From: Hymenobacter aranciens
GTDB taxonomy: Bacteria > Bacteroidota > Bacteroidia > Cytophagales > Hymenobacteraceae
Assembly (NCBI RefSeq): GCF_030580865.1
Contig: NZ_JAUQSY010000005.1
Coordinates: forward strand, 186,001 to 250,000
Direction: 5' to 3'
DNA length: 64,000 nt
This document shows, in pieces, positions 43,429 through 58,356 of the stretch. The notes below the pieces were generated by a model. It searched no databases. It saw only the letters and a list, made by a program, of their open reading frames with translations, and had not been told where the DNA came from. Position 1 is the first letter of the stretch. Each line of letters opens with the position of its first letter. Both the position numbers and the translations under genes were made by a program.

Positions 43429-43445
43429 GGGGTGGCCGTTTCGAA

Positions 43446-43576
43446 GCCTGCTTCCGCCGTTTCGCAGGGTCGTAACGCCATTTCGCAGGGTCGTAACGCC
43501 ATTTCGCAGGGTCTTAACGCCGACGGGAACGAGCTGCGAAACGGCGTTACGACCCTGCGAAACGGCGGAAGCAGGC
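43446..43576. repeat. inverted repeat with three 21-bp tandem repeats upstream of rpoN
   Basis: Arms 43446-43488 and 43534-43576 (43 nt) are complementary with one mismatch. Within the left half a 21-bp unit (TTTCGCAGGGTCGTAACGCC plus one base) is repeated at 43460, 43481 and 43502. The gap 43429-43725 holds this element and no gene. Confidence 0.9.
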
Positions 43577-43712
43577 TGCGAGGCGGCGGCGGGGCCCTGC
43601 GAAACGGCGGCGGCGCGTTGGCCAGCGCCGTTCGCGGCGCGAAACTTGCTACGGGCGCTCAACTTTTCGGCCGCGGGCGGGGTAAAGTAGTGCGCTCCCG
43701 CCGCCGACTTCG

Positions 43713-43720
43713 TATTTTCG
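43713..43720 (+). promoter_or_regulatory. rpoN -7-like box
   Basis: TATTTTCG differs from TAnnTTTG at one base and ends 5 nt before the rpoN ATG. It may start a leaderless transcript. Confidence 0.45.
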
Positions 43721-43725
43721 CCACT

Positions 43726-45300
43726 ATGCAACGCCTCGACCTTAAACAGCTGCTTTCCCAAAAGCTTTCGCCCCAGCAGATTCAGTTTATAAAACTGCTG
43801 CAAATCCCGACGGCCGAGCTGGAAACCCGCATCAAGGAAGAAATGGAGGTGAACCCCGCCCTCGAAGAAGGCGACACCGACGAGCCCGACGAGCAGGAGC
43901 GCAACGAGGACGACGACCGCGACGACGAAAACGACCCCGACGCCGAGTACGACAGCGACAACAGTACCCTGGATGAGGACTTTGAGGACCGCGCCGACGA
44001 CCGGGCCGACGACATCCCGGAGCCCGAAATCACCCCCAAAGACGACACGCCCGAGCAGCCCGACAACACCGACCTCGACCTCAGCGACTACCTCAACGAC
44101 GACGAAATAGCGGGCTACAAAATGCAGGGCGACGGCCCCGGCGACGAGGAGGAGCGCGACATGCCCCTGGCCGACACCAGCGGCTCGCTCATGGATGCGC
44201 TGCTCGACCAGCTGCACTTTGCCGACCTCGACGAGAAGCAGGAGGCTATTGGCCAGCAGCTCATCGGCTCGATTGATGGCGACGGCTACATCCGGCGCGA
44301 CCTCGCGGCCATTGCCAACGACATGGCCTTCTCGCAGAATATCGAAACCACCGTGGCCGAAATCGAGGCCGTGCTGCGCGTGGTGCAGGGCTTCGACCCG
44401 GCCGGCATCGCCGCCCGCGACCTGCCCGAGTGCCTGCTGCTGCAGCTCGAGCGCCGCCCGCAGGACGACGACACCGTGAACGCCGAGCGCATTCTCACCG
44501 AGACGTTCGAGGAATTTACCAAGAAGCACTACGTCCGTATTCAGCAAAAGCTGGACCTGGAGGACGACGAGCTGAAGGACGCCATCAGCGTTATTCTCAA
44601 GCTCAATCCCAAGCCGGGCGGCAGCGGCCCCACCGGCCCCGGCAAAACGCAGTACCTCATGCCCGACTTCATTCTGACGAATGACAACGGCGTGCTCAAC
44701 CTGACCCTCAACGCCCGCAACGCCCCCGAGTTGCGCGTAAGCCCGGCCTACACCGAGATGTTCCGGACCTACGACAAGGCCTCGAAAAAGGACCAGAAAA
44801 TGAAGGAGGCCGTCACCTTCGTCAAGCAGAAGCTGGACTCGGCCAAGTGGTTTATCGACGCCATCCGGCAGCGCCAGAACACCCTGCTGCGCACCATGAA
44901 CGCCATCGTGGAGCTGCAGCGCGAGTTTTTCATCGAAGGCGACGAAGGTAAGCTGCGGCCGATGATTCTCAAGGACATCGCCACGCGCATCGGCATGGAT
45001 ATTTCCACCGTGAGCCGCGTGGCTAACTCCAAATCGGTGCAAACCGAGTTCGGCATCTACCCGCTCAAGTACTTCTTCTCGGAAGGCATCGCCACCGACT
45101 CGGGCGAGGACGCCAGCAGCCGCGAGGTGAAAAGCATCCTCAAGGACCTCGTGGGCAACGAAAGCAAAGCCCGCCCCCTGAGCGACGACAAGCTCGAAAA
45201 AATGCTCAATGCCCGCGGCTACAACATTGCCCGCCGCACCGTGGCCAAGTACCGCGAGCAGCTCAACATCCCGGTAGCCCGGCTGCGCAAGGAGCTGTAA
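43726..45300 (+). CDS. rpoN: RNA polymerase sigma-54 factor
   Basis: This 524-aa sigma-54 begins with the Q-rich activator-interacting region (MQRLDLKQLLSQKLSPQQIQFIKLLQIP). A long acidic linker follows (residues about 45-130, DEQERNEDDDRDDENDP). The core-binding region (SLMDALLDQLHFADLDEKQEAIGQQLIGSIDGDGYI) and the HTH (IATRIGMDISTVSRVANSK) are complete, and the RpoN box ARRTVAKYRE is at about 502-511. The acidic linker is longer than in enteric RpoN. The ATG at 43726 is chosen over 43432, which would translate repeats. Confidence 0.96.
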   Translation: MQRLDLKQLLSQKLSPQQIQFIKLLQIPTAELETRIKEEMEVNPALEEGDTDEPDEQERNEDDDRDDENDPDAEYDSDNSTLDEDFEDRADDRADDIPEPEITPKDDTPEQPDNTDLDLSDYLNDDEIAGYKMQGDGPGDEEERDMPLADTSGSLMDALLDQLHFADLDEKQEAIGQQLIGSIDGDGYIRRDLAAIANDMAFSQNIETTVAEIEAVLRVVQGFDPAGIAARDLPECLLLQLERRPQDDDTVNAERILTETFEEFTKKHYVRIQQKLDLEDDELKDAISVILKLNPKPGGSGPTGPGKTQYLMPDFILTNDNGVLNLTLNARNAPELRVSPAYTEMFRTYDKASKKDQKMKEAVTFVKQKLDSAKWFIDAIRQRQNTLLRTMNAIVELQREFFIEGDEGKLRPMILKDIATRIGMDISTVSRVANSKSVQTEFGIYPLKYFFSEGIATDSGEDASSREVKSILKDLVGNESKARPLSDDKLEKMLNARGYNIARRTVAKYREQLNIPVARLRKEL

Positions 45301-48575: not shown

Positions 48576-48643
48576 ATAAGGCAAAGTCAACGGCCGCGAC
48601 CCGGCAGCTCTCCATGAAGCCGGCCGACGGTCCGGTTACCCGC

Positions 48644-51600
48644 CTATTGGATGACTACGCGTTTCACCACTTGGGTTTTGCCCGAACTGAGGTGCAGCGA
48701 GTACACGCCGGGGGCGAAGCCCGCTACCTCGAACTGCGAGGTAGCGCCGGCGGCCGTCATGGCCACGGTGCGGGTGCTCACGAGCTGGCCCAGTTGGTTG
48801 ATAACTTTCACCGTGACGGGGGCGCTGCCCATCTCGGCGGGCACCAGCAGCGTGAAGCTGCGGTGGGCCGGGTTGGGGAACAGCGTCACCAGGTCGGTGA
48901 GGTTGGTGCCGGGGCGGGTGGCCAGCGGGCCGGCCAGGCCGAAGAACAGGCTGAAGCGGCCCGGCAGCAGCGTGCTGCTGGCGCGGAAGCTGTAGGTCGG
49001 GTTCTGGCTCAGGTTGGTGCGGGTGCCGGTGAGGGCATCGAGCAGGAACACGTTGGTGCCCGAGCCGAAGTTGACGATGCTGGCGGCATTGAAGGTGTAG
49101 CTGCCCACGGCGGGCACTTTCACGTTCAGCGGCACGGTGGTGGTGCCGGTGAGGGCGGGCAGGCCGTTGATGGCCAGCTCGTCGTTGCCGGCAATGCTAC
49201 CCACGCTCAGGCCCGAGGTGTTGGGCAGCTTGTAGGCGTCGTAGAACGAGTCGAACACCGGCGAGGCGCCCTGCTCGAAGTACACGTAGGCGTCGTCGCT
49301 GAGGTTGGTACCTTGCAGCTGCAGCTGCACCAGCGGGCGGGTATCGCCGTTGCGGTTGAAGCTGGGCTGGGTGGAGAACGTAGTCACGCGCACGGCGTCA
49401 TTCAGGCCGAAGCTACCGGTGGTTTGCCCGGCCGACACGCGGGTGAAGAAGCCTTGCATGGCCGAAATCAGCGGGTTACCCACGCCGTTCACGTAGCTGC
49501 GGTAGTTGCCCACGTACTGGCCGGTGCTCTGGTAGGTGTAGATGGCGTCGTCCACGTTGGTGCGGGTCACGCCGCTCGTCTGGCTGAAGTTGATGGGCGA
49601 CGGGTAAGGGTTGCCCAGGAATTGCCAGCCGGCATCGGCGCTGGCGCCGCGGGTGAGGTTGCTGCGGGTTACGGGGCCGGTGTTCAGGGTGCCGTTGAGG
49701 TCCACCAGCGAGCTGGCGGGCAGGTTCACGGTGTAGCCGGTGAGCGGGCTGAACACGTCGCCGGCGGCGGGCACAAAGAAGCCTTTGTCGAAATCCGACT
49801 GGCCGGTGGCCACGCTGGTAGCAATGCGGCTCTCGTCGTAGCCGAACACGTTCGGGAAGGGCGTTACCAGGCCGGGCGTGGTCGAGCTGTTGTAAGCCTG
49901 GTTGAAAACCGGCGCGAAGCCGTTCGCCGCCAGGTCGCTCAGGAAAGTACCCGGACCCTGCATCGGCGAGCTGTAGTGGCGGTAGCCGGCCCCGGCGTTG
50001 AAGGCGGGGTCGATGGCGCGCTGCATGATGGCCGGGCCGCTCACGACGCCGGCAGTGTTCACCACCAGGGCAGTGCCGGCGGTCGGGGTCGAGCGCAGGG
50101 TCAGCACGTTGCCGGCGCTGGTGACGAGGTTGCCGCTGGTCAGGGTTACGAGCTGGCTCACGGCCACGCCGCCGTTGTTCACGGTTACGCCAGCCGCGTT
50201 GTTCACGGTCAGGCTGCGCACCTGGGCGGGCAGGCCGGTACCGGTGGTTTGCGCTTCGCCGCCGATGAACTCATAAATGGCATCGTTCGAGAACGAGCGG
50301 CTGCCCGCCAGCTGGATAGCGCCCGTAGCGCCGCTGGCGGCAATGCCGGCCGAATTGCACACGCGGAGCGTGCCGCCAGCCTGCAGCACGAAGCTGCCGG
50401 GGCCGGTGATGGGCAGGCAGTTGGTAGCCAGTACGCCGCGGGTGCTCAGCACGCCGCCGTCCTGCACCGTCAGGGTGCCATTCACCTGGATGGGGCCGTT
50501 GAACGAAGCCACGCCGCCGCTGGTGATGGTGATGTTGCGGTAAGTGCCGGCTTCCACTGGCATGGCGGTGCTCACCGTCAGGTCGGGGATGGTGAGGGTG
50601 TTAGTCGGGCCGCTGGCCGAACCGGTGCCGCGCCAGGGCGTCTGCACGTAGGGGAAGGCCGCGCGGATGGTGGTGTCGTTGCGCTCCACGCCCGAGGTGA
50701 AGGCCAGTACGCCACCCAGCTGCGGCGTCACCGGCGAGGTGCTGGCAGGCGTGTAGTCGTCGTACCACAGGCCGATGGCAGCCAGTACTACGCCACCGGC
50801 AGCTTTCAGCTCAATCTGGTCCACGGCGTCTTCCAGGCGGCGACCGTTCGGGAAGCCGTCCATGTTCGGGATGAATTCCAGGTTGGCGTTGCCGTTGAAG
50901 CGCGGGTCCGTCAGGCCCAGCACGGCGGCGGCCAGCAGCCCTTGGTTGCTGAAATCAGCCGAGTTGCGGGGCGTGGTAGGCACGGCCATGTTCAGGCGCA
51001 GCATGTCGCCGCCCACGTTGGTAGCACCGGGGTAGGTCAGGGGCAGGAAGTTGTTGATGAACGGCTTGCCGGCGGCCAGCGGGTCACCGTTTTTGCCGGT
51101 GGCCAGCTGGTAGGGCCGCAGGTTAGGCACCCCGGTGTGGAAGATGGGCTTGATATCCACCGAGCGGGGCTTGCCGGGCACCAGCAGATATTCGCCAAAA
51201 CCACCCTGAGCTACCGGAGCCAGGGCAGTGCCGGCTACGGCGCTGCTGCCGGCCAGCCCGCTCAGGCCGGCGGCCTGGTTGCGGAAGTCGAAGCCATTGG
51301 CGGGCAGGCCGGGGAAGCCGGCCAGCGACTTAGTCTGGATGCGCAGGGCGTCCAGGGCCGGCACGGCTTCACCGTAGTAGGTGGCGGCTACCGTCTTGGG
51401 CGCCTGCGGAGCCGTCGGCACGTCATCGGCCATGTACAGGTCCACCTCGGGGTTCGAGAGGTAGTCGTCCGTCACGGCTGCTTCGGCGTAGGGCGAGCGG
51501 GCGTTCCAGGTGTCCTTGGCGCCGATGGGGTTGATAACCTCGTTGGTGAGGGGCATGCCCAGGCGCGAAACCTGCACCCAGGTGCCGCTCTGGCCGTCGC

Positions 51601-52483
51601 CGTTGGTGGCGTCGAAGGTGCGCAGCTGCTGGCGGCTGGCCGAAGCCCACACGCCAATCACATAGTTGGGGTCGAGAATGCTGGTGGCCGCCGAGGCGGG
51701 TTGGCCGTTCTTCTGCAGCGTGGCAATCGGAATGCTAAGGGCAATCGAGTGTACGTTCTTGCGCGACAGGCCATCGGGGGCCGTGTTGGGGCCGCCGGGC
51801 GTGGCACCCGCGCCCGGGCGCAGGCCAGCCAGGTCGAAGATGGCGCCAAGGTCGGCGAAGAAGGGGTCGTCGGCGGGGCCGCAGAAGACGGTTTCGCCGC
51901 CGCCGCCCGTAGCCGGCGCGATGGAGTTGGTGCGCAGCGACTCATAGTTCGGCGCGTTCAAACCAGCGCCGCCCTCGATGGAGCGGGGGCCGATGTTGTT
52001 CGGGGCCACCACGCCGTTGGTCACGATGGCCGTGAAGCCGCCACCGTTCACGCTTTTCTCGCAGGTGTAGGTGGTTTTCAGGTTCTGGGCCCCCAGGCGG
52101 ATGTTGAAGAACGTGGACGGGTCCATGTTCGTCTGGGCGAAGGTGAAGCGGTACGTGATGTTGTCGGTAGCCGTGCTGCCGTCGTTTTTCACGTGTACTT
52201 CGTAGCGCACCCCGGGGCTGAAGTTCGAGTAGTTCGGCCCGCCGTGGGGCAGCTCGAAGGGAATGTAGTTGGCAATGATGACGACGCGGTTGGCGTCGTT
52301 GGGGTCGCGGAAGGCGTAGAGGTCGGTGTTGTCGGCCGTGGGGTCGTCGGCAATCATCGGGGCCTCGCGGTGGCTACTGGCTTCCAGCGGGGTGTAGTGG
52401 GCGTTGCTCCACATGGCGAAGCCCGCCGCCGCCGCGCCCAAAGCGGGCAGCGCGGCATATTTACGGATAGATTTGAGTGTCAT
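48644..52483 (-). CDS. DUF4331 protein with a T9SS tail and stalk shared with the neighbour
   Basis: This 1279-aa protein has a signal-like start (KYAALPALGAAAAGFAMW) and a DUF4331 domain beginning ASSHREAPMIADDPTADNTDLYAFRDP. DUF4331 covers about residues 35-645 and matches the upstream gene closely. The C-terminal half (about 650-1200) has GTYRNITI, YRHYSSPM and NVFGYDESRI text that aligns with the protein at 54817. The tail is a T9SS sorting domain (TLFPNPAHRSFTLLVP...VVKRVVIQ). The function of DUF4331 is unknown. It is 33 bp downstream of the DUF4331 paralogue and cotranscribed. Confidence 0.9.
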   Translation of the reverse strand: MTLKSIRKYAALPALGAAAAGFAMWSNAHYTPLEASSHREAPMIADDPTADNTDLYAFRDPNDANRVVIIANYIPFELPHGGPNYSNFSPGVRYEVHVKNDGSTATDNITYRFTFAQTNMDPSTFFNIRLGAQNLKTTYTCEKSVNGGGFTAIVTNGVVAPNNIGPRSIEGGAGLNAPNYESLRTNSIAPATGGGGETVFCGPADDPFFADLGAIFDLAGLRPGAGATPGGPNTAPDGLSRKNVHSIALSIPIATLQKNGQPASAATSILDPNYVIGVWASASRQQLRTFDATNGDGQSGTWVQVSRLGMPLTNEVINPIGAKDTWNARSPYAEAAVTDDYLSNPEVDLYMADDVPTAPQAPKTVAATYYGEAVPALDALRIQTKSLAGFPGLPANGFDFRNQAAGLSGLAGSSAVAGTALAPVAQGGFGEYLLVPGKPRSVDIKPIFHTGVPNLRPYQLATGKNGDPLAAGKPFINNFLPLTYPGATNVGGDMLRLNMAVPTTPRNSADFSNQGLLAAAVLGLTDPRFNGNANLEFIPNMDGFPNGRRLEDAVDQIELKAAGGVVLAAIGLWYDDYTPASTSPVTPQLGGVLAFTSGVERNDTTIRAAFPYVQTPWRGTGSASGPTNTLTIPDLTVSTAMPVEAGTYRNITITSGGVASFNGPIQVNGTLTVQDGGVLSTRGVLATNCLPITGPGSFVLQAGGTLRVCNSAGIAASGATGAIQLAGSRSFSNDAIYEFIGGEAQTTGTGLPAQVRSLTVNNAAGVTVNNGGVAVSQLVTLTSGNLVTSAGNVLTLRSTPTAGTALVVNTAGVVSGPAIMQRAIDPAFNAGAGYRHYSSPMQGPGTFLSDLAANGFAPVFNQAYNSSTTPGLVTPFPNVFGYDESRIATSVATGQSDFDKGFFVPAAGDVFSPLTGYTVNLPASSLVDLNGTLNTGPVTRSNLTRGASADAGWQFLGNPYPSPINFSQTSGVTRTNVDDAIYTYQSTGQYVGNYRSYVNGVGNPLISAMQGFFTRVSAGQTTGSFGLNDAVRVTTFSTQPSFNRNGDTRPLVQLQLQGTNLSDDAYVYFEQGASPVFDSFYDAYKLPNTSGLSVGSIAGNDELAINGLPALTGTTTVPLNVKVPAVGSYTFNAASIVNFGSGTNVFLLDALTGTRTNLSQNPTYSFRASSTLLPGRFSLFFGLAGPLATRPGTNLTDLVTLFPNPAHRSFTLLVPAEMGSAPVTVKVINQLGQLVSTRTVAMTAAGATSQFEVAGFAPGVYSLHLSSGKTQVVKRVVIQ

Positions 52484-52516
52484 TTTCTTCGAACGAATCA
52501 GAAGTGAGAGATTGAG

Positions 52517-54361
52517 TTAGCGACGAGTAGCGAAGCCCTGCCACGGCGTCTGCACGTAGGGGAAGGTGCTGCGGAACGTGGTGTCGTTTTTCTCCACGCC
52601 GGTCGCGAAATTCAACACGCCCGCCAGGCGCGGCGTGGCCGGCGAAGGGCTGGTGGGCGTGTAGTCGTCGTACCACAGGCCGATGGCTGCCAGCACGGCG
52701 CCACTCACAGCCTGCAACTCAATTTTGGTCACGTCGTCCTCCAAACGGCGGCCGTTGGGGAAGCCGTCCATGTTCGGAATGTTCTGAATAGCCGTCGAAG
52801 CATTGAAGCGCGAATCGGTGATGCCCAGCACGGCGGCGGCGATGAGGCCTTGGTTGCTGAAGTCAGCCGAGTTGCGCGGGGTGGGCGGCACGGCCATGTT
52901 CAGGCGCAGCATATCGCTGCTGTGGGGGCCGCCGCCCGTGAGAAGCAGGAAGTTGTTGACGAAGGGCTTGCCGGCCGCCAGCGGGTTGCCGTTTTTGCCG
53001 GTGGCCAGCTGGTAAGGGGCCACGTTCGGCACACCCGAGTGGAAGATGGGCTTGATATCCACCGAGCGGGGCTTGCCCGCTACCAGCAGATACTCGCCAT
53101 AGCCACCGCTGGCAATGGGGGCCAAGGCAGTGCCGGCCACGGCGCTGCTACCCGCTAGGCCGCTCAAGCCGGCGGCGTTATTGCGGAAGTCGAAGCCATT
53201 GGCGGGCAAGCCGGGAAAGCCGGCCAGCGACTTGGTTTGCACGCGCAGCTGCATCAGCGCCGGCACGGCCTCCCCGTAGTAGGTGGTGGCGGTGGTTTTG
53301 GGAGCGGCCGGGGCTACCGGCACGTCGTCGGCCATATAGAGGCTCAGCTCGGGGTTCGAGAGGTAGTCGTCGGTCACGGCGGCCTCGGCGTAGGGCGAGG
53401 TGCGGTTCCAGGCGTCCTTGGCGCCGATGGGGTTGATGGCCTCGTTCAGCAGCGGCATGCCCAGGCGCGATACCTGCACGTAGGTGGCGTTATCCGTGGT
53501 GGGGGCGCCGGTGGTGCTGAGGGTGCGCACCGAGGGGCGGCTGGCCGAAGCCCACACGCCAATCACATAGTTGGGGTCCAGAATGCTGGTAGCGGCCGAC
53601 ACTGGCTGCCCGTTCTTCTGCAGCGTGCTGATGGGCGCGCTGATGGCGATGGATTGCACGTTGTAGCGGGCGAGGCCGTCGCGGGCGCCCTGGTTGATGC
53701 GGAAACCGGCCAAATCGAAGGCGGCCCCGAGGTCGACAAAGAAGGGGTCGTCCGAGGGGCCGCAGAAGATTTGCTCGCCGCCGCCGCCGGTGGCATTGGC
53801 TACCGTGGTTTGGCGGTAGGCGGTGTAGTCGGGCTGGTTCAGGCCGGCGGCGCCGCTAATCGAGCGCGGCCCGATGTTGTAGGCCGGTACCACGCCGTTG
53901 GAAACGATTGTGGTGAAGGCCCCGCCATTCACGCTCTTCTCGCAGATGTAGGTGGTCTTGAGGTTCTGAGCCCCCAGGCGAATATTGAAGAACGTGCTCG
54001 GGTCGGTGTTCGAGCGCGTGAACGTGAAGCGGTACGTCACGTTGTCCACGTTGGTGGCGCCGTCGTTCTTCACGTGAATTTCGTAGCGGATGTTCTCGCC
54101 GAACGTGTAGTAGTTCGGGCCGCCCTGGGGCAGCTGGAAGGGCACGTAATCCGCAATCAGCACCACCCGCGTGGGGTCGTTGGGGGCGCGGAAGGCGTAC
54201 ACGTCGGTGACGTCGGCCAAGGGGTCGTTGGCAATCATGGGCGCTTCGCGGTGGCTGCTGGCCTCCAGGGGTTGCTGGGAGCCGCTCCAAAGCACGGCGC
54301 CCGCGGCAACGCCCACCGCGGCGGTCAGCACAATTGCCGGCCGGGTAAGGTTTTTCTTCAT
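52517..54361 (-). CDS. DUF4331 protein without a T9SS tail
   Basis: This 614-aa exported protein has a signal-like start (MKKNLTRPAIVLTAAVGVAAG) and a DUF4331 domain (ASSHREAPMIANDPLADVTDVYAFRAP). It is a close paralogue of the first half of the downstream gene, up to YVQTPWQGF, where it stops without a T9SS tail. It should remain in the periplasm unless carried by another route. The ATG at 54361 (with one more at 54367) is chosen over 54475, whose leader is not hydrophobic. The gap 54362-54816 contains no gene; it holds a terminator at 54743. Confidence 0.88.
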   Translation of the reverse strand: MKKNLTRPAIVLTAAVGVAAGAVLWSGSQQPLEASSHREAPMIANDPLADVTDVYAFRAPNDPTRVVLIADYVPFQLPQGGPNYYTFGENIRYEIHVKNDGATNVDNVTYRFTFTRSNTDPSTFFNIRLGAQNLKTTYICEKSVNGGAFTTIVSNGVVPAYNIGPRSISGAAGLNQPDYTAYRQTTVANATGGGGEQIFCGPSDDPFFVDLGAAFDLAGFRINQGARDGLARYNVQSIAISAPISTLQKNGQPVSAATSILDPNYVIGVWASASRPSVRTLSTTGAPTTDNATYVQVSRLGMPLLNEAINPIGAKDAWNRTSPYAEAAVTDDYLSNPELSLYMADDVPVAPAAPKTTATTYYGEAVPALMQLRVQTKSLAGFPGLPANGFDFRNNAAGLSGLAGSSAVAGTALAPIASGGYGEYLLVAGKPRSVDIKPIFHSGVPNVAPYQLATGKNGNPLAAGKPFVNNFLLLTGGGPHSSDMLRLNMAVPPTPRNSADFSNQGLIAAAVLGITDSRFNASTAIQNIPNMDGFPNGRRLEDDVTKIELQAVSGAVLAAIGLWYDDYTPTSPSPATPRLAGVLNFATGVEKNDTTFRSTFPYVQTPWQGFATRR

Positions 54362-54742
54362 AAACATGAAGTGGGGGTAAAGTGAGAGAATAGGAAAGGG
54401 TTTATGTTTGCCCCGAATGCCTTGGCCGCCACCCGCGAAACGGACGACGGCGGAGCAGCCGGGAGCAAGCAGCAATACGCTAGGGGATTGAAAAGCGGAT
54501 TGGACAACTTAGTTACCTTTCTGCTACCCCGCGATGAAATGTGCCCTCACGAGGCGCTGGGCCGCTATTACCCGGGTAAGTCTTATTGAAAAAGCCAAAA
54601 TCTTACACCCTTTCTGTGCGCCCGCTCCCGAATTTCCGGCGGCACTACTGCCAGCAGCTCTCTTGAAGTGAGAAAATTATACCTCAGCAGTAAGAGGCAC
54701 CAGTTTGGTGCTGGCAGGTAATTTCACACGTTGCGCCCACTA

Positions 54743-54774
54743 AAAAAGGCCGCCCCCTTCCGGGAGCGGCCTTT
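54743..54774 (-). terminator. terminator downstream of the 54817 gene
   Basis: On the minus strand, GGCCGCTCCC pairs with GGGGGCGGCC followed by TTTTTTAG. It lies 43 bp after the stop of the gene at 54817. The rest of the 455-bp gap shows only weak A/T-rich promoter-like text. Confidence 0.8.
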
Positions 54775-54816
54775 CTAAATTCCTGCAGAAAAAGGTCGAA
54801 TCTTTTCTACAAAGCG

Positions 54817-57800
54817 CTATTCCACTACCACGCGCTTCGTGACCGGGGCGATGCCCTCGCTGCGAAGCTGCAGCAGGTATACGCCGGCCGCCAGCTTATC
54901 GGTTGCAAACTCGGCCACGGCGCCGCTGGCCGAGAGGGTCAGGCGGCGGGCCGGCTGCACCACCTGGCCGAGGCCATTGAGCAGCGTAGCCTGCAGGGCC
55001 GGAGTGCCGGGCAGGGCCGGCACGCTCAGCGTGAAGCGGCCGTGGGCGGGGTTGGGGTACACGCTCAGCTGCTGGGCCAGGGTGCTGGCGGTGGCCAGCG
55101 GAGCGGCGCTGGGGTTAAACACCAGCGCGAAGCGGCCCACCGACGTGAGCTCGGTAACGCCCAGCTGGAAGGTGTAGCTGGCGCCCATCCGCGAGAGGGC
55201 GGTTTGCTGGTTGGTGCGGCGGTCTACCAGCACCACGTTGCTCAGGCCGGCCGGGGCCAGGTTCAGCAGCTGCTCGGCGGCAATGGTGTAGGTGCCGGCG
55301 GTGGGCACGTTCAGGCCCAGCGGCACGGTAATGGCGGCGCTGCCGGTGGGCAGGCCGAGGCCGTTGATGGCCAGCTCGGTGGCGCCGGCCAGCGAAAACA
55401 GGTTGGGCGCCTGGCCGCCGGGGTTGCGCAGCTTGGTGGCATCGGTGCGGGCATCGGCGGCGGCGGTAGCGGCCAGGTCGAAGTACACGGTGGTTTCATC
55501 GGCCAGGGCGGCGGCGCTGCCCTGCAGGCTGAGCTTCACCAGCGGGCGGCGCTCGGCCGAGCCGCGGCGGAAATTGGTGCCGGTGCTGAAGGTGGTTTCC
55601 CGCATGAAGTTGTCGAAGGTGAAATCGACCGACGAACCGGCGGCGCCCACGTTGCGCACGAAGAAGCCCTGGCCGCTCGGGATGATGGGATTCCCGATGC
55701 CGTTGACGTAGGTGCGGTACTGGCCGGCATATTGGCCGGTGCTCTCATACACGTAGGCGGCGGCGCTCATGCCGCTGGGGATGCTGGCCTGGCTCCAGTC
55801 GATGGGCGAGGGGTAGGGGTTGCCCACCAGGTGCCAGCCACCGTCGGCGCTGGCGCCGCGGCTCAGGCTCACGGTCTGGTCGCCGGTTACGGGCGTGCCT
55901 TCGAAATCGACCAGCGCGCCGGCGCCGATGTTCACGGTGTAGCCGCGGCCCACGGCCAGGGCCGCGCCGGTGCTGGCGGGCGACACCCAGCCTTTATCAA
56001 AAGCTCCGTAAGAGGAGGTAACGGTAGCCACGCGGCTTTCATCGTAGCCAAACACGGTGGGGAAGGGCGTCACCAGGTTGGGCTCGGCGGCCGCGTTGTA
56101 GGCCGGGTTCACCACGGGCGCAAAGCCGCCGGTGGCCAGGTCGGCCACGGTGCTGCCCGTCACGGGCGCCGAGTAGTGGCGGTAGCCCGTGCCCGGGTTC
56201 ACGCTGGGGTCGATGGCGCGCTGCACGCGGGCCGGGCCCGCTACCACGCCCGGGGTGCCACCTAGCGGGCCGCCTTCCGGCTCATTAAAGACGAGGGCCG
56301 AGCCCTGCGTGGGGTTCGAAAGCAACGTGAGCAGGTTGGTGTTGCTCGTCACGAGGTCGCGCCGGAGGCGCAGGCGGCGGCGCACGCTCAGCGGGCTGGA
56401 AAGCGTTAGCTCGCCGGCGGTGGGCGGTGTCCCTCCATCGGTATTGAAATCAATGTCGGTGTTCACAAACAGCTCCCGCACGGTGGCCGGCAGGCCGGTG
56501 CCGCTCACGTAGCTCGCCGACACGCGGTAGGTATAGCTAGCGTCGTCGGAGAACGAGCGGGTGCCCGTTACCTGCACGGCGCCAGTGGTGCCGCTGGCGC
56601 TGAGGCCGCCGGCATTGCGCAGCTGCAGCGTACTGCCGGCCTGCGTGGTGAAGGAGCCAGGGCCGCTCACGGTGCGGGTATCGAGGTTCAGTTCGCCGCC
56701 GGTTTGCAGGGTCAGGGCGTTGGTTACCGTCAGGTTATTGGTGAGGCGGGCCACGCCGGTGCCGGTGATGGTCACGTTGCGGTAAGTGCCATTGATGTCC
56801 CGATTCAGGGTATTCACCACGAGGTCGCCGGGGGTGCCGTCATTCACGCAGATGCCGAAGGTGCCTTCTGAGTCGTGAAATACCCGGGCATACAGCACCT
56901 CGCCGGGCGTGCGGCCCGATACGCCCACCGTGCCGAAATTATCATTGCCGTTAAATCGGTTGCAGCCTAACTCCGTCAGCGTCCCGCAAGTACCACTGTA
57001 CAACGCCAGGGTCACGTCGTTGAGCGCATTCACCGCTGTGCCGGCGCTGGTGCGCACTACGGCAGCGCCGTTAGCAGGCACCACAAACTGATACCACACG
57101 TCGTACCAGCTTCTTTGCACCCAGAAGGTGGCGCAGCTAGGGCCGGGGAAGTCTTTGGTAGCTCCTTCGAGGGTGCCGTTTACCGAGTTGCAGCTGCCGT
57201 TGCTACCCACCGTTAGCACCGTGGCGGTGGAGCAGAGGTCGTTGGTCAGCAGCGGTGCCGCCTCAAGGTTGCTGACGCAGATGGAGTAGGGGTCGTCGGA
57301 CCCGAAGTTCTGGAGCACTACCCGCAGGTAGTAAGTAGTGCCGGCGGTCAGCCCGCTTACCTGCTTGGAGTAATCAACGCAGTTCACGCTGGTGAGACTG
57401 CCGCAGCTGCCGCTAAATACCTCCAGCCGGTCATCGTTGGCGGTAGTTTCGACGTGTATAGTGCCCGAAGCCGGCGCTACGAAGCTATACCAGGTGTCCT
57501 TGCCGCCGTCGCACACCTGCAGGCTGCTGCTCGAAGCCGTGGCGTTTGCATTGATGGCATTGTAGGCGTTGGCGCAGGGGTTGTTGGCGGGCGCCACCGT
57601 CAGGGCCACGGCGCCGCTGCACTCGTCGTTGCTCGGCGCCATGGGCGGCACAAAAGCATACACCTGTCCGCTGGCGGGTGGCGTCGTCAGGTTGTTGGTC
57701 GCCGTAGCTTTGCTGTAGCTGGGGGCCGTGCCCGTGTCGCGTAGCGACAGGAACGCCCAATCGGTAATCAGGCCAATGCTGGCACCGTCGCCCGTTACGG

Positions 57801-58356
57801 GGGCGCTGCCCACGTTGTTATAGGCATACTCCACGCGTCCCGCGCCCTCATACAGCCGCACCTGGAAGGAGATGTTCGGCGCGGTGGCCGTTACGCCCCA
57901 CTTCCAGTTGCGCCACTCGAAGGTGAACACCCGGCTGCCCACCGCGCCCGTGGTGCGGTAGCTGGCCGTGCCGTTGCTGCCATCGAGGTCGTCCCACAAG
58001 GCGGCCAGCAGCGGCTGCGAGTCACCACTAAGGTTATCGAAGTCGTTGTCTCTTGTGGAGCTCAGCAGGCTGTTAAACGACAAAAAGCCGTTCGATGAGG
58101 CATACGCCGTGTTGTAGCTGTTGCCTTCAAACTTGAATTCGAAGCCGATGGGCAGGCCCGCCGAAACGCTGTCATTGGTTTGCACCAACGATACCACGGT
58201 ACCCCCGTTCAGTGGCACATAGGCTTCCTGCCGGGGCATCAGCGTCAGTTTATCAAAGCGAATGGTGGGCTGCGCCCAGGCCTGCCCGGTGCTCAGCAGG
58301 CCCAGCAGCAGCCCGGCCAGCAAGCCCCAGCGGCGAGTAGGTAAGAGAGTTTTCAT
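54817..58356 (-). CDS. large T9SS-secreted multidomain protein
   Basis: This 1179-aa protein has a signal peptide (WGLLAGLLLGLLSTGQAWAQ). Residues about 30-235 look like a nidogen/PEP-like domain (GFLSFNSLLSSTRDNDFDNLSG, LYEGAGRVEYAYNN). Two PPC-like sandwiches follow (DTWYSFVAPASGTIHVETT; about 240-500). From about 520 the text matches the C-terminal half of the DUF4331-T9SS protein (GTYRNVTITGTG, YRHYSAPVTGS, FPTVFGYDESRV). It ends in a sorting domain (LSVYPNPAHGRFTLSVP...VTKRVVVE). The ATG at 58356 is chosen over the long open frame to 58533. Function unknown. Confidence 0.88.
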   Translation of the reverse strand: MKTLLPTRRWGLLAGLLLGLLSTGQAWAQPTIRFDKLTLMPRQEAYVPLNGGTVVSLVQTNDSVSAGLPIGFEFKFEGNSYNTAYASSNGFLSFNSLLSSTRDNDFDNLSGDSQPLLAALWDDLDGSNGTASYRTTGAVGSRVFTFEWRNWKWGVTATAPNISFQVRLYEGAGRVEYAYNNVGSAPVTGDGASIGLITDWAFLSLRDTGTAPSYSKATATNNLTTPPASGQVYAFVPPMAPSNDECSGAVALTVAPANNPCANAYNAINANATASSSSLQVCDGGKDTWYSFVAPASGTIHVETTANDDRLEVFSGSCGSLTSVNCVDYSKQVSGLTAGTTYYLRVVLQNFGSDDPYSICVSNLEAAPLLTNDLCSTATVLTVGSNGSCNSVNGTLEGATKDFPGPSCATFWVQRSWYDVWYQFVVPANGAAVVRTSAGTAVNALNDVTLALYSGTCGTLTELGCNRFNGNDNFGTVGVSGRTPGEVLYARVFHDSEGTFGICVNDGTPGDLVVNTLNRDINGTYRNVTITGTGVARLTNNLTVTNALTLQTGGELNLDTRTVSGPGSFTTQAGSTLQLRNAGGLSASGTTGAVQVTGTRSFSDDASYTYRVSASYVSGTGLPATVRELFVNTDIDFNTDGGTPPTAGELTLSSPLSVRRRLRLRRDLVTSNTNLLTLLSNPTQGSALVFNEPEGGPLGGTPGVVAGPARVQRAIDPSVNPGTGYRHYSAPVTGSTVADLATGGFAPVVNPAYNAAAEPNLVTPFPTVFGYDESRVATVTSSYGAFDKGWVSPASTGAALAVGRGYTVNIGAGALVDFEGTPVTGDQTVSLSRGASADGGWHLVGNPYPSPIDWSQASIPSGMSAAAYVYESTGQYAGQYRTYVNGIGNPIIPSGQGFFVRNVGAAGSSVDFTFDNFMRETTFSTGTNFRRGSAERRPLVKLSLQGSAAALADETTVYFDLAATAAADARTDATKLRNPGGQAPNLFSLAGATELAINGLGLPTGSAAITVPLGLNVPTAGTYTIAAEQLLNLAPAGLSNVVLVDRRTNQQTALSRMGASYTFQLGVTELTSVGRFALVFNPSAAPLATASTLAQQLSVYPNPAHGRFTLSVPALPGTPALQATLLNGLGQVVQPARRLTLSASGAVAEFATDKLAAGVYLLQLRSEGIAPVTKRVVVE

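Follow-up and report, generated by a model that had tools for sequence, protein, structure and literature searches.

Two adjacent DUF4331 genes of Hymenobacter aranciens, here named A and B, very probably form an old tandem pair, of which A received its tail from a family of T9SS modules, and the third gene beside them, C, is an unrelated bystander. The three genes are located in a window of 64,000 nucleotides (contig NZ_JAUQSY010000005.1, positions 186,001 to 250,000), to which all coordinates below refer. A sequence-only reading of this window had regarded A as its two neighbours joined together; this was supported in part, and its main point, the fusion of neighbours, was refuted.

Gene organization and domain composition

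All three genes are located on the minus strand and transcribed in the order C, B and A, which agreed with the order given in that reading. Gene C (58356-54817, 1179 aa counted from the ATG) is composed of two GBD_T9SS_assoc stretches followed by the same C-terminal module as in A, and it lies outside the conserved pair. Gene B (54361-52517, 614 aa) contains a putative signal peptide and the DUF4331 domain only. After a gap of 33 bp (52484-52516, minus strand), the size of which is similarly retained in relatives, follows gene A (52483-48644, 1279 aa). It contains a putative signal peptide, a DUF4331 domain (residues ~36-616) and a C-terminal module of ~650 aa (residues ~632-1279; 48644-50593 on the minus strand, coding part and stop), at the end of which a T9SS type A sorting domain is located (residues 1201-1279). 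The N-termini of A, B and C, read by eye, were basic and then hydrophobic, and the signal region of B contained no cysteine, such as a lipobox would have.

In the Pfam comparison, A and B shared DUF4331, A and C shared Por_Secre_tail, and only C had GBD_T9SS_assoc (galactose-binding-like). A and B are like the DUF4331 family (PF14224) in matching the full profile, each covering all 421 positions with an E value of about 1e-120 (402.8 bits for A and 409.2 bits for B; cut-off 27), but A differs from it by the ~650-aa module added after the domain. A and C resemble T9SS type A cargo (TIGR04183 / PF18962 Por_Secre_tail) by the sorting domain at their ends, with TIGR04183 scores of 33.3 bits for A and 27.0 bits for C (cut-off 23); their putative signal peptides would also fit such cargo. 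B differs, as the TIGR04183 and Por_Secre_tail profile searches found no sorting domain in it.

The similarities between A and B and between A and C were far above chance. In BLASTP, residues 24-619 of A and 24-609 of B shared 74% identity (bit score 890), with 76.7% identity at the DNA level in the DUF4331 part. Residues 634-1279 of A aligned with residues 511-1179 of C at 46% identity (E 4e-143), and the DNA of these two tails showed only patchy similarity (~67%). BLASTP revealed no shared similarity between B and C. Both resemblances pointed out earlier, that of the DUF4331 half of A to the 614-aa B and that of its last ~650 residues to the C-terminal part of C, were thus confirmed.

The AlphaFold model of B, with its DUF4331 domain, was of good quality (pLDDT 80.5, pTM 0.85) and strand-rich in its first half. 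This model gave no Foldseek match under E 0.001; its best VIA match, a CBM74, had a Z of 7.2, within the range reached by unrelated folds, and a sequence search of solved structures revealed no credible match. The module of A has a beta-strand-rich start, a middle part without confident model and a beta-rich end with the Por_Secre_tail, and the tail model, built from five sequences, was poor (pLDDT 53). Among the papers of the library searched by name and accession, none named DUF4331 or PF14224.

Transcription units

Just after C, we found a terminator-like hairpin on the minus strand (approximately 54741-54775), composed of a stem-loop and then a T run; the 51-nt stretch had an MFE of -29.4 kcal/mol and a z of -4.8. 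The spacing between C and B is 455 bp, compared with 33 bp between B and A. Considering the strong hairpin after C and the short gap between B and A, the latter two are likely to form an operon, and C is probably transcribed and terminated apart from them. The region upstream of B yielded no promoter motif of the Bacteroidota type, and the scan for sigma-70 promoters was likewise negative.

On the plus strand, an open frame of 1297 codons (48614-52507) ran antisense across all of A, and its counterpart in locus L158 comprised 1902 codons; such long antisense frames are probably a by-product of G+C-rich codons. Elsewhere in the window, two adjacent arrays of 21-bp tandem repeats (43455-43611) were found at the upstream end of an RpoN-like sigma-54 gene (ORF 43432-45300).

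The B-A pair in the genus Hymenobacter

The DUF4331 search covered 101 genomes of the genus Hymenobacter, the window genome included. In 17 of the other 100 genomes, a long open frame of about 1270-1360 codons came immediately after a short copy; in one further genome the pair was cut by the contig end. In all 17 loci, an orthologue of B (71-79% identity) was separated by about 30 bp from a full-length orthologue of A (66-71% identity overall and 62-68% in the tail). Homologues of C and of the other genes of the window were not found next to the pair in these 17 loci; the only matches there were frames antisense to A and B and a single weak one of 30% in L146.

The proposal that A arose by duplication and domain joining stands as far as A is composite, with its DUF4331 half and B being tandem paralogues in sister clades. 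It does not stand as an event local to this genome, as the same fused gene lies beside a B orthologue in the 17 related genomes, and at the genus level it is the B-A pair that recurs as a gene set in other taxa. The surroundings of the pair varied between species groups, indicating that the pair moves or travels as a unit. Since it occupies several different neighbourhoods, horizontal spread of the pair within Hymenobacter may have taken place.

The tail module family and gene C

The last 648 residues of A showed about 50 long matches in its own genome with 37-52% identity, nearly every one in a reading frame of its own, these frames being about 700 to 4500 codons long. C ranked only 23rd among the non-self matches. 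In each of eight other genomes of the genus, 2-13 tail copies were found at E<=1e-60. These ~50 copies of the ~650-aa module (query 48644-50590) represent an unusual lineage-specific expansion of T9SS-tailed proteins, in a genome with at least 150 Por_Secre_tail matches in all.

A tree was built of 49 tails, 20 of them from A and its orthologues. These 20 formed one clade (100/100), and the tail of C was placed elsewhere; the nearest own-genome paralogue of the A tail was L032, with weak sister support (83/93). The front part of C (508 residues) had no orthologue in the 18 other genomes carrying the pair, in which its best match was 42% over about half its length. C is thus a member of the same module family and an unrelated, genome-specific gene lying upstream by chance, and the likeness of A to it is coincidental, because the export module of A is common to many genes of this genome.

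A duplication of B in this genome, with one copy then joined to the C-terminal part of C, would agree with the adjacency of the genes on the same strand and with the alignment of both halves of A, but it is very improbable as the origin of A. The same fusion exists in 17 other genomes without C, C is specific to this genome, 22 paralogues exceed it as match to the A tail, and the tails of A and C fall in separate clades. By these same four findings C is ruled out as the donor of the T9SS tail, for which it had been taken. Moreover, the DUF4331 domain of A is nearer to those of its orthologues (up to 82%) than to that of B, and the tree gives no sign that this lineage was the source of every A orthologue.

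Phylogeny of the DUF4331 domain and age of the duplication

Among 201 DUF4331 domains placed in one tree, those of A and its orthologues (20 rows, SH-aLRT 98) and those of B and its orthologues (21 rows, 99) formed sister clades, all from Hymenobacter. Both clades sat inside Hymenobacter (99), beside single copies with a short T9SS tail, and the third DUF4331 copy of this genome, located on contig C24, was found among these single short-tailed copies. As the sister clades of A and B each span ~20 species, the duplication is old.

Mapped on an rpoB tree of 30 genomes, the distribution of the pair required 4 changes, compared with a mean of 9.2 after shuffling; if the root were placed on the branch to the seven pair-less genomes, one gain and a few losses would suffice. 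Considering the 17 intact pairs, the two clades and the rpoB pattern together, both the duplication and the fusion predate the sampled species.

Tandem DUF4331 pairs across Bacteroidota

Outside Hymenobacter, the best DUF4331 loci were chosen by similarity to A and are not a random sample; among the 53 two-gene loci not cut by a contig end, an untailed copy was followed by a tailed copy in 50 (median gap 30 bp), one locus was reversed and two were arranged otherwise. One further locus contained two untailed-tailed pairs in a row. All of the 50 tailed copies ended in Por_Secre_tail, and between about 105 and 1007 residues followed the DUF4331 domain, some of these stretches containing DUF11 or SprB repeats. 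The window pair fits this layout, its genes being adjacent on the same strand with a short gap, B untailed and A carrying the sorting tail. The tandem pairs of Saprospiraceae, Chitinophagaceae, Fluviicola and other Bacteroidota share the untailed gene, gap and tailed gene, often with TPR, HupE or TonB-receptor genes nearby, but the inserts of their second genes differ, often consisting of only a ~110-aa tail and in other cases of DUF11, SprB or further modules. None of the loci fetched from outside the genus was found to contain the Hymenobacter tail module.

Frequent neighbours were genes for a TPR protein (71 loci), a TonB-dependent receptor (35), ECF sigma factors (31), a HupE/UreJ protein (25) and anti-sigma factors (23), counted in clusters formed by similarity alone, of which the sigma cluster may contain unrelated sigma genes. 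Neither the window nor the 12 kb that follow its high end yielded a TPR, HupE or TonB-receptor gene, and the TPR and HupE genes of this genome adjoin the third DUF4331 copy on C24, not the B-A pair. Another tandem DUF4331 pair of Hymenobacter was observed in L066, L068, L161 and L162; both of its copies have ~110-120 residues after the domain, the size of a T9SS tail, and the pair adjoins TPR, HupE and TonB-receptor genes.

The tandem pair could be ancient in Bacteroidota, with gene conversion homogenizing the copies in each lineage, so that the duplication in Hymenobacter would be only seemingly recent. This would suit the untailed-then-tailed order, which many families share (50 of 53 two-gene loci), and also the DUF4331 tree, where first and second copies grouped by lineage and not by position, with at least 18 changes forced. 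Long silent-identity runs (p<0.05) were found in 11 of 51 pairs compared with 2 of 60 control comparisons, a hint that some lineages have undergone gene conversion. We nevertheless consider an ancient, converted pair rather unlikely. In the window pair, windows of 30 codons hinted at recent conversion, but the silent-site run tests were not significant (p 0.12 and 0.28) and we do not claim it; only one of 19 Hymenobacter pairs reached p<0.05. Almost no residues separate first from second copies across the lineages, as three columns only marked them throughout the phylum and one of these was reversed in Hymenobacter. In addition, the Hymenobacter pair is placed within the single tailed copies of its genus.

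Repeated independent tandem duplications, in which a partial duplication leaves a truncated first copy and hence the same short-then-tailed order, have in our opinion close to an even chance, slightly below it. The lineage-wise grouping of the copies would follow, and the tandem pairs with both copies tailed in some Hymenobacter indicate that other outcomes exist; yet many independent origins would have to arrive at one gene order, one end point of the short copy and a similar spacing. This grouping by lineage despite a constant layout, seen in the tandem pairs of loci L074-L142 and L143-L162, would reflect gene conversion or repeated duplication.

Proposed function of the pair

We propose that a tandem duplication of a DUF4331 gene took place in an ancestor shared by a group of Hymenobacter species; of the two copies, B is without sorting tail and A bears the ~650-aa module from the large T9SS-exported family. 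According to their domains, A and B would both enter the periplasm through signal peptides. B, with no tail and no lipobox-like cysteine, would remain in the periplasm, and A, with its sorting tail, would cross the outer membrane by T9SS and then be surface-fixed or released; a periplasmic B and an A exported to the cell surface are most likely as predicted from the sequence. Export with display at the surface or release from it is established for proteins of this sorting type, which in Porphyromonas and Tannerella are anchored by a glycolipid (PMC7468200). The long module of A may act as a spacer or stalk, and DUF4331 domains would be present at both faces of the outer membrane.

The operon neighbours in relatives, with TPR, HupE/UreJ, TonB-dependent receptor, ECF sigma and anti-sigma genes, suggest a regulated uptake or binding system. 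The two DUF4331 forms might be binding partners for a ligand taken up via the TonB receptor and the HupE-like membrane protein, possibly a metal or a metal-bearing ligand. Tentatively, and with somewhat more doubt than belief, we extend this to a phylum-wide two-gene system, in which DUF4331 would exist in a periplasmic and a T9SS surface form, the copies would be kept alike by recurrent conversion or re-duplication, the surface copy would swap its spacer, and uptake would be sigma-controlled together with the TPR protein, the HupE-like permease and the TonB receptor.

A fresh fusion of neighbours was a tempting but wrong story, which is now replaced by a conserved pair, and neighbouring genes that share a large exported module may be merely two of many in a family expanded in the genome. 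The pair layout repeated across Bacteroidota invites a functional test, and it is the part worth following.
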